The notes beneath the pieces are model-generated. The model did no database searches. It saw only the letters and a program-made list of their open reading frames with translations, and was not told the DNA's origin. A stretch of DNA of 25,138 bases from a virus. A program made the position numbers and the translations under genes. Shown one piece after another: positions 1 to 10,285 of the stretch. The stretch spans positions 1-25,138 of the IMG/VR virus record IMGVR_UViG_3300027849_000056; one strand, 5' to 3'. Position 1 is the stretch's first letter, and the number at the start of each line of letters is the position of its first letter.

Positions 1-44
1 TGAGTCAGTTTTGGTGTATCTTTTATGGCGCACAGATATTTTCT

Positions 45-57
45 CGAGGTGACCTCG
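45..57. repeat. 13-bp perfect palindrome, possible packaging-site element
   Basis: CGAGGT and ACCTCG form two perfect 6-bp arms around a single central G. As RNA it would be a 5-bp stem with a TGA loop. It lies 10 bp before the iteron array and about 250 bp before the small terminase gene, where cos or pac elements usually sit. The stretch GGTGACCTCG differs at one base from the GGCGACCTCG I recall at the lambda left end, but that match is short and may be chance. It could equally be a repressor operator. The palindrome is certain; its role is a guess. Confidence 0.4.
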
Positions 58-67
58 ACTCTATGGA

Positions 68-217
68 CATAGCAATATCATAGCAATATCATAGCAATAT
101 CATAGCAATATCATAGCAATATCATAACAAGTATGTGACAATATGTGACAGTATGTGAGAGTATGTGGCAATATCATAACAAGTTCGTGACAAGTATGTG
201 ACAAGTTCGTGACGCAG
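68..217. repeat. Iteron array of about 14 units of 10-12 bp upstream of terminase
   Basis: Five perfect head-to-tail copies of CATAGCAATAT occupy 68-122. They run into diverged units: CATAACAAGTAT (123), four 10-bp units of the GTGACAATAT type (135-174), CATAACAAGTTC (175), GTGACAAGTAT (187), GTGACAAGTTC (198) and a broken last copy at 209-217. The period is close to one DNA helical turn, so all units present the same face to a protein. Position just before the small terminase gene suggests a terminase-recognition or packaging-initiation site; a replication origin or regulator-binding array is the alternative. Identical units at the left and decayed units at the right suggest recent expansion of one unit. 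No open reading frame of note crosses this region. Confidence 0.9.
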
Positions 218-254
218 TTAGAGCCCACGCAATGTATCTAATGTAAATTCGCAC

Positions 255-283
255 TTGACATTGCAATATCCATGATGTATAAT
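255..283 (+). promoter_or_regulatory. Promoter P1, consensus sigma-70, drives terminase genes
   Basis: TTGACA at 255-260 and TATAAT at 278-283 are separated by exactly 17 bp, a perfect sigma-70 consensus. Transcription should begin near 290. The spacer contains GCAATATC (263-270), the core of the iterons upstream, so an iteron-binding protein could also control this promoter. The -10 box overlaps an ATG at 282, which therefore cannot be the start used on this transcript. Confidence 0.85.
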
Positions 284-2725: not shown

Positions 2726-3922
2726 ATGCCAAAATTTTGGGCAAATATAGTAGAAAAACTAAATCCCGTACAGCCTATTATAGGTAGGGATGAAGGTTCT
2801 AACATAGGGACTACCCAATCAAAGATAAATACTTTAAAAAATGCTTACGAGCTAGTTGAAGTAGTTAATAGGTGTGTCAATTTACTAATTGATAATGCCT
2901 CGATGATAAACTATGACGTTGCCGGATCGCTACCCTTTACAGGACAAGCAACAGGTGTACGAAATAAGACCCTAGGAAATCTACTAAACCACCGACCAAA
3001 TCCCTATATGGATATTAATACGTTCAGACGTTTAATCATAATGGATTTTATAATGGATGGTAATGCTTTTATTCATTATGATGGTAGTAGCCTATACCAC
3101 ATACCTGCTGCAGAGATGGAAGTAATTCCTGACAATAAACATTATATAAATTCTTTTATATATAATGGACAGCACACGTTTAAGTCAGATGAAATAATTT
3201 TTATAAAAGATAATAGTCTCAACAGTATTTACCGAGGAGACTCAAGAATTAACAGTGCACTAGATAGTATACTTTCTAGAGAAGCTATGTTAAATTTCCA
3301 AAAGTCATTTTTTGAGAACGGAGCGGTAATGGGTCTTATTGTAGAGACCGATGAAATTCTTAGTAAGAAACTAAAAGATAGACAAGAAAAAGAGTGGATG
3401 GCTAAATTCAATCCTAAACGAGGTTCTACTAGACCACTAATTCTGGACAATGGTTTAAAAGCCAAATCTATGTCAAACTCAAACTTCAAAGAAATGTCGT
3501 TCAACGAGAGCATAGATGCTAAAGAAGAAAAGATTTGTATGGCCCTAGGAGTTCCTCCTATCCTACTTAATAGTGGTAACAACGCTAATCTTAAACCTAA
3601 CTTAGAGCTAATGTTCTATACTACTATTCTTCCTATGATGCGTAAGTTTGAATCCGCATTTGAGTACTTTTTTGCTTACGATGTAGAACTCTCTACTCAC
3701 AAAGTCCCAGCATTAAAGCCAGACCAAAAAGATCAGGCAGAGTATCTATCTTCACTAGTTAATAATGGTTTAATGATAGGTAATGAAGCTAGGGTTATTC
3801 TTAGATTAGAGCCGGTTGATGACCCTCTAATGAAGAAAATCAGGATCCCAGCAAATGTTGCAGGATCTGGTACAGGTGTCTCAGGACAAGAAGGTGGAAA
3901 GCCGCCAGAAGATAAGGAATAA
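2726..3922 (+). CDS. Portal protein, HK97 type
   Basis: This 398-aa protein would form the dodecameric ring at one capsid vertex through which DNA enters and leaves, docking terminase first and the tail adaptor later. It has the pattern of the HK97-like portal family: LLNHRPNPYMDINTFRR (about 86-102), followed by a segment reading DGNAF (111-115) and the YRGDSRI segment (169-175). There is a helical stem-like region at 190-240 and a conserved-looking GVPPILL near 276-282. The last 20 residues are Gly- and charge-rich and probably disordered. AAGGAG directly overlapping the HNH stop gives a strong ribosome site 7 nt before ATG. Order terminase-HNH-portal-protease-capsid matches cos-type phages. 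Length is normal. Confidence 0.93.
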   Translation: MPKFWANIVEKLNPVQPIIGRDEGSNIGTTQSKINTLKNAYELVEVVNRCVNLLIDNASMINYDVAGSLPFTGQATGVRNKTLGNLLNHRPNPYMDINTFRRLIIMDFIMDGNAFIHYDGSSLYHIPAAEMEVIPDNKHYINSFIYNGQHTFKSDEIIFIKDNSLNSIYRGDSRINSALDSILSREAMLNFQKSFFENGAVMGLIVETDEILSKKLKDRQEKEWMAKFNPKRGSTRPLILDNGLKAKSMSNSNFKEMSFNESIDAKEEKICMALGVPPILLNSGNNANLKPNLELMFYTTILPMMRKFESAFEYFFAYDVELSTHKVPALKPDQKDQAEYLSSLVNNGLMIGNEARVILRLEPVDDPLMKKIRIPANVAGSGTGVSGQEGGKPPEDKE

Positions 3923-3925
3923 ATA

Positions 3926-4168
3926 ATGGATCACGTTATTAAAGAAGTATATAAAGTATTCGGTACTAAGCTCCCTGAGACAAGAAGTGCGTACAGCGCC
4001 CAGTCTATGAAGCCTTTTCCAGTACTTACTATTACTAAAGCTTATAAGAATTGGACAATGTTTTACTCGGAGTATACTAAATACTGTATTGCTCAACGTA
4101 ACATCCAAGCCAAAACTAAAGTAGTAGAAAAGAAGGTGGTGTCTAAATATGTCAAAAAAGATGTATAA
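3926..4168 (+). CDS. Small protein of unknown function between portal and protease
   Basis: This 80-aa protein is not one I recognise. It is basic, with a Lys-rich C-terminus (from about residue 61, KTKVVEKKVVSKYVKK), contains several aromatic residues (KNWTMFYSEYTKYC, 41-54), and has no signal peptide or membrane segment. It starts 3 nt after the portal stop, with AAGGA upstream, and overlaps the protease-capsid gene by 20 nt, so it is co-translated with essential head genes. Position suggests a small head assembly or DNA-contacting factor, but this is inference only. Good ribosome site, tight spacing and no stop codons make it likely to be a real gene. Confidence 0.65.
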   Translation: MDHVIKEVYKVFGTKLPETRSAYSAQSMKPFPVLTITKAYKNWTMFYSEYTKYCIAQRNIQAKTKVVEKKVVSKYVKKDV

Positions 4169-6122
4169 TGCCCAATTAGTAAGTAAGATTAAATCCGTTC
4201 ATCTAGATGATGATGGTGAAGATCTTATAATTGAAGGGTATGCCAACACAGTTACTAAAGACCGTGCTGGTGACGTTATTCCAATGGAAGCTTGGATGAC
4301 AAAAAATGCTCTCACCAATTACTTAAAGAACCCAATTGTTCTAGCTTACCACAACCATAGTATGCCAATCGGAGCAATGATTGGTCATGAGGTTACGGAG
4401 ATAGGACTAAAAATAAAAGCGAGAATCAGCAAAGGTGCTGGTGACGTTTATCATTTAATCAAGGATGGTATCTTAACAACATTTAGTGTTGGATTTGGTA
4501 TACTTGATGCAGAATACGACCAGAAATCGGATACGTACTACATCACAGATGTAGAACTACACGAGGTATCAGTTGTATCTGTGCCATGCAATCAAGACTC
4601 TGTCTTTTCGGTTGCTAAAAGCATGAACTCTCAAGACTTTGAGAAATTCAAAAATAACATTACGCCATCCGGCGATATTAAGGACAAAAATATAATGACT
4701 TTAGAACAAATGCAAGCACAACTTGCAGAAATGCAAAAAAATTCAGTAAGCCCAGAGGCAATTGCCAAGGCTGCTGCTCAAGCTGCAACTTCAGCAATCG
4801 AAGCTGCTACATCAAAAAAATTAGCTGAAGATGCTGCTACATTAGTTGCTGAAAAAGCTGCTGCTGACCAAACTGCTAGCGTAAAAACTGCTGCTCGTCT
4901 TGAAGCTGAAACTTTAGTAAAAGAATTAAAAGCTGAGTTAAGTGCTAAAGATGGTACTTTTGCTGAGATGGTTAAAGCTAACAACGATCAGATCGTTTCT
5001 CTTAAAGAAGAAATCGCTCAGGTAGTTGCTTCACGCTCTAACGCAGTATCTGCAGTTGCTACAGCAGTACGTGGCGGTGACGCTCAACGTGCAAAGAACG
5101 TAGACTCAATGGTAATGTTAGGCATTATCAAAGGTGTAGACGGTGCTTTAACTTCTTTCGGTAAGAAATTTACTGCTACTGAAAAAGCTGTTAACGGTTC
5201 TTCAAGCATTGCTGTTTCAAGCGATGGTTATGAAACTGAGTTTTCTACTAACTTAATGCGTGATATTCAAGCTAAATTAGTTGTTGCTCCATTATTTACT
5301 GAATTATCAATGAATTCAGCTAATATGACTATTCCAATTAATCCAGCACGTTCAAACGCTAACTGGATTTCTGCTGCTAACATGGCTGACGGTACTGCTT
5401 CTGCTCGTACTGGTGCTGAGATTACAGTTACAATTACTGAAAAGACTCTTAAGACTTTCAAGCTTGCTGCTAAGACTTTCTTAACAGAAGAGACTGAAGA
5501 AGATGCAATCATCTCAGTAATCCCTCTTTTACGCTCTCACTTAGTTGAATCTCACGCTGCTGAAATGGATGCTTCATTCTTAATCGGTGATGGTACTGCT
5601 AAGCCTAAAGGTTTGGCTACTCAAGCTATGGCTGTAGCTGCTGGTGCACAAACTTCAGTTTCTACTGCTAAAGCAGATGGTACTGTTAAAGTAACTGCTG
5701 CTGATTTATTAGCTGCACGCCGTAAGATGGGTCTTTATGGTATTGATATTAAAGATATTTCATTAATCGTTTCTCAAGACGCTTACTGGGATTTACTTGA
5801 AGATGCTGAATGGGCTGATGTTCAACAGGTTGCTACTGCTTCTACTAAATTAGTAGGCGAAGTTGGTAACGTATATGGTATGAAAGTACTAGTTTCTGAT
5901 GAATTTGCTGCTAAAGCTGTTAGTACTGCTTACGCTGTTATGGTTAATACTTCAAACTTCGTAGTAACACGCCAACGTGGTGTAACTTTACGTAGCGATT
6001 TTGATGTTGAGTTAGATCGTACAGTATTCGTTGCAACCCAACGCGTTAACTTGGAGCCTCTAATCGAAGCTTCTGCTGGTAACGGTAAAGGTGTTGTTGC
6101 GGTTACATACGCAGCCTCTTAA
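4149..6122 (+). CDS. Prohead protease - scaffold - major capsid protein fusion
   Basis: One 657-aa polypeptide covers three jobs usually split among genes. Residues 1-160 are an HK97-type prohead serine protease: H68 (in AYHNH), S113 (TTFSVGF) and a Glu near 136-139 (ELHEVSVVSVP) are the likely catalytic residues. Residues about 183-295 are Ala/Lys/Glu-rich coiled coil, like the HK97 delta (scaffold) segment. Residues about 350-657 look like an HK97-fold capsid subunit, including SMNSANMTIP and a C-terminal VTRQRGVTLR segment. Self-cleavage would remove protease and scaffold, probably between 300 and 350; I cannot place the cut. From about 4740 onward codons become strongly biased, with no AGA, AGG or ATA seen. 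A possible internal start lies at 4695. A terminator follows the stop directly. Confidence 0.92.
   Translation: MSKKMYNAQLVSKIKSVHLDDDGEDLIIEGYANTVTKDRAGDVIPMEAWMTKNALTNYLKNPIVLAYHNHSMPIGAMIGHEVTEIGLKIKARISKGAGDVYHLIKDGILTTFSVGFGILDAEYDQKSDTYYITDVELHEVSVVSVPCNQDSVFSVAKSMNSQDFEKFKNNITPSGDIKDKNIMTLEQMQAQLAEMQKNSVSPEAIAKAAAQAATSAIEAATSKKLAEDAATLVAEKAAADQTASVKTAARLEAETLVKELKAELSAKDGTFAEMVKANNDQIVSLKEEIAQVVASRSNAVSAVATAVRGGDAQRAKNVDSMVMLGIIKGVDGALTSFGKKFTATEKAVNGSSSIAVSSDGYETEFSTNLMRDIQAKLVVAPLFTELSMNSANMTIPINPARSNANWISAANMADGTASARTGAEITVTITEKTLKTFKLAAKTFLTEETEEDAIISVIPLLRSHLVESHAAEMDASFLIGDGTAKPKGLATQAMAVAAGAQTSVSTAKADGTVKVTAADLLAARRKMGLYGIDIKDISLIVSQDAYWDLLEDAEWADVQQVATASTKLVGEVGNVYGMKVLVSDEFAAKAVSTAYAVMVNTSNFVVTRQRGVTLRSDFDVELDRTVFVATQRVNLEPLIEASAGNGKGVVAVTYAAS
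4680..4697 (+). promoter_or_regulatory. Possible internal ribosome site and start for scaffold-capsid
   Basis: AAGGA at 4680-4684 is followed after 10 nt by ATG at 4695, in frame with the fusion gene (residue M183). It lies exactly between the protease and the coiled-coil scaffold and just before the codon-usage shift. Initiation here would give a 475-aa scaffold-capsid protein without protease, allowing far more capsid than protease. Ribosome-site quality and location are seen; use of the site is inferred. Confidence 0.5.
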
Positions 6123-9880: not shown

Positions 9881-10285
9881 ATGTTATTAAAAGATATAAT
9901 TGTAAACACAAAAACAGTAGAAGTAGAGTTCCCAGGACTAGACGGATTTAAAATAAGTATTGCAGCTATTTCTAGAGAAGTATCTAGAAAGCTCAAAGAA
10001 GAATCAGAAACTACTAAAATTGATCCAGCATTAAGAATGTCTGTTACCGAACTAGATGAAGATAAGTTCTTGGAAAAGTTTGCAAGCGCGGCCATCAAAG
10101 GATGGTCTGGCTTAAAGATGAAGTACCTTAGCGAACTACTACTTGTAGACGCAAGCAAGATTGAAGATCTTGAAAGTGAAGTAGACTTTAGTTTAGAAAA
10201 TGTCGTAGAATTATTAAAACACTCGCAAATATTCGATACTTGGATAAATGAGCAGGTGTTTAACATCGAACGATTTCGAGACTGA
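9881..10285 (+). CDS. Tail assembly chaperone, upstream frame (gpG-like)
   Basis: This 134-aa acidic helical protein occupies the place of lambda gpG, between tube and tape measure. It would bind the tape measure and keep it soluble while the tube assembles. The N-terminal VEVEFPGLDGFKISIAAISR (13-32) reads as a short beta unit, then helices rich in Lys/Glu (ALRMSVTELDEDKFLEKFASAAIKGWSG spans about 50-77). AGAGGA lies about 10 nt before ATG. Its last 38 nt overlap the downstream frame, and TTTC at 10274-10277 offers a +1 slip site. It is followed immediately by a second in-phase stop (TAG), so normal termination is secure. Confidence 0.8.
   Translation: MLLKDIIVNTKTVEVEFPGLDGFKISIAAISREVSRKLKEESETTKIDPALRMSVTELDEDKFLEKFASAAIKGWSGLKMKYLSELLLVDASKIEDLESEVDFSLENVVELLKHSQIFDTWINEQVFNIERFRD

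Follow-up and report, generated by a model that had tools for sequence, protein, structure and literature searches.

A putative T5-type packaging site with a conserved 16-bp element and a fast-changing repeat array next to the terminase genes of an uncultivated phage

The cos region of phage lambda consists of cosQ, cosN and cosB and contains the gpNu1 R sites; cosB positions the terminase for the cut at cosN. Lambda DNA has 12-nt cohesive ends, whereas T5 carries long direct terminal repeats (LTR). How such long terminal repeats arise has been described as unknown (PMC8541194). In HK97, TerS binds one 15-bp site located +15 to +29 past the cos cut (PMC11331095).

The stretch of DNA analysed here, referred to as the window, comes from an uncultivated phage and is a fragment of 25,138 bases that carries a terS-terL-HNH-portal module of the T5 type. 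Its genes follow the order terS, terL, a gene for a small PHROG_3497 protein, portal, a fused protease-capsid gene, and tail. The terS gene (306–755, + strand) encodes a small terminase subunit of the T5 type with an N-terminal helix-turn-helix (HTH) and matches PHROG_3802 with an E value of 5e-47. It is followed by terL for the large terminase subunit (742–2064, +). The gene for the PHROG_3497 protein (2269–2715, +) lies between terL and the portal gene (2726–3922, +), in the place of the HNH nicking endonuclease of T5; T5-like phages encode a nicking endonuclease between terL and portal, and the order in the window matches. The presence of T5-family TerS and TerL genes beside the site and the terS-terL-HNH-portal order fit a T5-type packaging site. 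In the window, the prohead protease and the major capsid protein form a single fused ORF (4149–6122), in contrast to the T5-like phages seen, where each has its own gene. The best cultured matches of the window TerS are T5-like phages, with 39–52% identity. The structural model of this protein has a pLDDT of 82–86 over the HTH and 63 overall, with low confidence outside the HTH. It weakly matches the DNA-binding domain of SF6 TerS (4zc3), and a fold search with it returned no match at E 0.001 or better. A perfect sigma-70 promoter for terS, TTGACA-17-TATAAT (12/12), is located at 255–283 (+). A terS start at 282 was ruled out because this position falls within the promoter, and terS probably begins with the ATG at 306.

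The array upstream of terS occupies positions 68–214 and, when the units are read directly, comprises 13 units of 10–12 bp and one partial unit, with a mean of 10.8 bp. It opens with five identical tandem copies of CATAGCAATAT (68–122, +; 11 bp each), the first of which overlaps element B described below. The degenerate part (123–214, +) holds eight units of the types CATAACAAGTAT, GTGACAATAT and GTGACAAGTTC and the partial unit. These are, all on the + strand, CATAACAAGTAT (123–134, 12 bp), GTGACAATAT (135–144, 10 bp), GTGACAGTAT (145–154, 10 bp), GTGAGAGTAT (155–164, 10 bp), GTGGCAATAT (165–174, 10 bp), CATAACAAGTTC (175–186, 12 bp), GTGACAAGTAT (187–197, 11 bp), GTGACAAGTTC (198–208, 11 bp) and the partial GTGACG (209–214). 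The tandem array is real and far above chance: its TRF score is 119, whereas none of 1,000 dinucleotide shuffles of window positions 1–281 scored above 56. The autocorrelation at lags of 11 and 22 bp is 0.63 and 0.66, respectively, and 500 shuffles gave no value above 0.475. The degenerate half (123–213) taken alone is not above its own shuffles. The original prediction of about fourteen units of 10–12 bp, five of them identical, just upstream of the small terminase gene is borne out by these counts. Some 92 bp separate the array end from the likely start of terS, and the promoter, which begins 41 bp past the array, lies between them.

The DNA of relatives that corresponds to the region left of the window contains a conserved 16-bp element, GGGGCGGTNNNNAGAC, designated element A. 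Close relatives whose sequence extends sufficiently to the left (L002, L005, L007, L011, L012, L013, L085 and L093) carry A or a close variant of it. In L002 it sits at 68–81, upstream of terS and on the terS strand; the window itself does not include it. In the relatives' records that were searched whole, A is single-copy at that place, and a control pattern gave a count of zero. On the far side of A, dmp/A1 genes are encoded in L005, L012, L013 and L085, while the window and L002 end short of there; L012 retains both A1 and dmp homologues beside A. In cultured T5-like phages A also lies on the terS strand, and the distance from its end to the left edge of the annotated LTR is 28 bp in T5 and 27 bp in PR1, My1 and EscoHU1. 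Homology to T5 may have guided the placement of some deposited LTR ends, and these ends are therefore not all independent. A was detected in 31 of 33 T5-like IMG/VR records, 25–28 bp from the record end in 12 of them. Where a record includes both copies of the LTR, A is in most cases present twice. In Vibrio T5-like phages A is located after dmp.

A scan of viral contigs for A by DNA sequence only returned at least 120 contigs, and in at least 102 of these terS/terL of the T5 type follow A on the same strand. Among the matches listed, terS/terL lie downstream of A in 97 of the 107 contigs that leave over 1.5 kb of room, no contig has these genes upstream or reversed, and a dmp-like gene is present upstream of A in about half. 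The dmp-like gene is opposite in strand to terS in 60 of 62 environmental contigs with A (L171–L290, among the matches listed), which is unlike T5. Approximately 800 bp separate A from terS in L143 and L147, where a homing-endonuclease-like ORF has apparently been inserted. KASIA, another phage with long repeats, has a terminase whose nearest match is in Colwellia phage 9A, and A is absent from the 50 kb of it that were read. A search of bacterial genome contigs returned one distant relative, which lacks A. Four forms of A gave no match in the literature searched, which covered few subscription journals, and an earlier description is possible.

Over 3,887 bp, L002 and the window share 99.3% identity, and position 124 of L002 corresponds to window base 1. 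Based on this alignment and on the ends of T5, PR1, My1 and EscoHU1, the terminase cut is predicted approximately 15 bp left of window base 1, and the array would start approximately 80 bp past it. The window contig starts about 15 bp to the right of the predicted cut, and this may hint at a physical end there. The original prediction was exposed to the objection that the genome ends might lie far from the array; the predicted position of the cut speaks against this. The locus is very probably a packaging and cleavage site, as judged from its homology to the T5 group. The annotated terminal-repeat boundary of phiR2-01 (HE956708, 112,796; locus L164), which was set from read coverage (PMC8624392), lies approximately 71 bp from the place predicted by A, and its close relative EscoHU1 ends exactly at the A-predicted place. 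This suggests that the annotated end of phiR2-01 is misplaced by 71 bp. The right LTR edges of T5 (10,170–10,219), PR1, EscoHU1 and My1 have in common the sequence TTGACAAGTGAAAATT...GTGGCTC and variants of it, which is a candidate second cut signal.

On the window side of the predicted cut, a spacer (1–64, +) with a conserved GGCGCA (27–32) and a small dyad, TCGAGG-TGA-CCTCGA (44–58), leads to element B, GGACATAGC (65–73, +), at +80 from the predicted cut. B or a close variant is found at +72 to +91 in seven of the eight close relatives compared; L012 is without it. The offset is +80 in the window, L002 and L013, +82 in L007, +72 in L085, +73 in L005, +77 in L093 and +91 in L011. B occurs with at most one mismatch in four of eight regions, whereas shuffles averaged 0.11 such regions and never exceeded 2. 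B was found solely in close relatives, and it was not found at the corresponding place of the T5 sequence read. In the window, L007, L011, L013 and L093, small dyads with differing arms (TCGAGG-TGA-CCTCGA, TGCGG-TGG-CCGCA, TGAGG-AGAC-CCTCA) precede B, at roughly +58 to +76 relative to the predicted cut. They are weak one by one but, taken as a group, hint at a conserved hairpin or dyad ahead of B. Since B is repeated in five relatives (L004, L005, L011, L013 and L085) and the first unit of the window overlaps it, the array resembles a variable expansion of this element. B and the array would be the likely dock of the small terminase, with B as its proposed cosB-like docking motif.

Related phages have repeats in the same place: tandem repeats or repeated motifs lie upstream of terS in L002, L004, L005, L007/L008, L009–L011, L012, L013, L085 and L091. 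Their units and lengths, in contrast, are not the same. Unit lengths of 8, 10, 11, 15–16, 20, 32 and 46 bp were observed among the close relatives, and helical phasing, proposed earlier as the working principle of the array, was rejected on this basis. The TerS of L002 is identical to that of the window, and yet window positions 74–170 are replaced in L002 by 25 different bases; the two phages still share the last three or four array units, as well as B with one mismatch. Array copy number varies in L007/L095. The array is hypervariable and, judging from these alignments, changes quickly even between near-identical phages. The reading of the array as a small-terminase recognition site therefore stands in part: the region is by homology a terminase cleavage and packaging region, but its conserved parts are A and B and not the array.

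This turnover is the starting point of the main rival explanation, according to which packaging is performed by A, the C-rich block at the cut and possibly B. The array itself would be a neutral satellite, prone to slippage and tolerated in the space before terS, and repair synthesis close to the cut might favour it. The exchange of the array core between 99.3% identical phages with the same TerS, the differing copy number in L007/L095 and the many A-bearing phages without an array are in line with such a satellite. It accounts less well for units that repeat the positionally fixed B in several independent relatives, or for the repetitive DNA just past the cut in the named close relatives and in most of the cultured T5-like phages examined. 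We consider a neutral array possible but doubtful.

In T5, PR1, My1 and phiR2-01, terS is 1.3–3.6 kb away and the repeats still adjoin the cut, which indicates that the repeats track the cut and not the terS promoter. This bears on the view of the array as a set of operators through which a regulator acts on the terS promoter. The perfect promoter so close to the array end would suit such a role, but no candidate regulator gene was recognised in the window and the units are unrelated from relative to relative; together with the position of the repeats, this makes an operator array improbable. Replication-origin iterons, to which the array is similar in unit size and AT content, are a still more remote explanation: no initiator was found among the ORFs searched in the 25 kb window (packaging, head and tail genes), the position of the repeats in relatives follows the terminase cut and the terminase genes, and neither units nor lengths are conserved.

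An early count of repeats in 16 of 26 cases downstream versus 4 of 23 upstream had pointed to a universal array and was not upheld in the unbiased set. Among the matches listed, 57 non-redundant contigs were found by A alone; repeats are located past the cut in 21 and upstream of A in 19, and two further comparisons gave a similar picture. Several contigs with A have just about 100–130 bp from the cut to terS and no repeats. Because repeats are equally common upstream of A and some contigs are repeat-free, the array is not an obligatory part of a T5-type site.

We propose that the locus is a T5-type packaging site in which TerS on B and on the B-like units sets TerL at a cut between A and B, the array being an expansion of B, and we regard this as fairly probable. 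In the concatemer, the proposed order is the LTR side with the first-step-transfer genes (A1, dmp), A, 27–28 bp, the terminase cut, the C-rich block, about 80 bp, B, the array, the promoter and terS-terL. The N-terminal HTH of TerS would bind B and the B-like units. TerS would then place TerL on the cut, possibly together with the adjacent HNH-type protein, in the way that lambda cosB serves cosN. The array, as a fast-changing expansion of B, might multiply the contacts of TerS. A more specific proposal is a bipartite site in T5-type phages, in which A is near-invariant and, in one lineage, the TerS dock B lies at a fixed distance and is rapidly expanded or replaced as an array while TerS stays identical. 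We put this forward tentatively and consider it rather unlikely as stated. If it is true, TerS reads a short degenerate core, and turnover of the array could serve to tune packaging specificity, or to diversify it, among co-infecting relatives.

The fixed position of A, 27–28 bp from the annotated terminus, in T5-like phages and its presence in at least about 100 environmental contigs with T5-type terminases make it a candidate cut signal. A allows the prediction of genome ends from sequence alone and makes recognition by TerS testable in T5 itself.

A terminase cut and packaging site is a known kind of element; new here are the T5-type element at a fixed distance and the fast-changing array. 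The closest counterpart is the left LTR edge of T5, PR1, My1 and EscoHU1, with A on the terS strand 27–28 bp from the terminus. The T5 group also shares the C-rich block at the cut, the repetitive DNA just past it, the dmp/A1 genes on the side, the TerS family and the terS-terL-HNH-portal order. In T5, oad lies between the site and terS, whereas terS directly follows the site in the window's group. Neither B nor the 11-bp CATAGCAATAT units are seen in T5. The window has a fused protease-capsid gene, and the LTR of its phage is putative. HK97 is similar in that its TerS site is a short way downstream of the cut and an HNH protein aids cos cleavage, but it has a single site and no array. Lambda, likened here by layout alone, has the same succession of a cut site, repeated TerS-type sites over 100–200 bp and terS, and the array of the window is far more variable.
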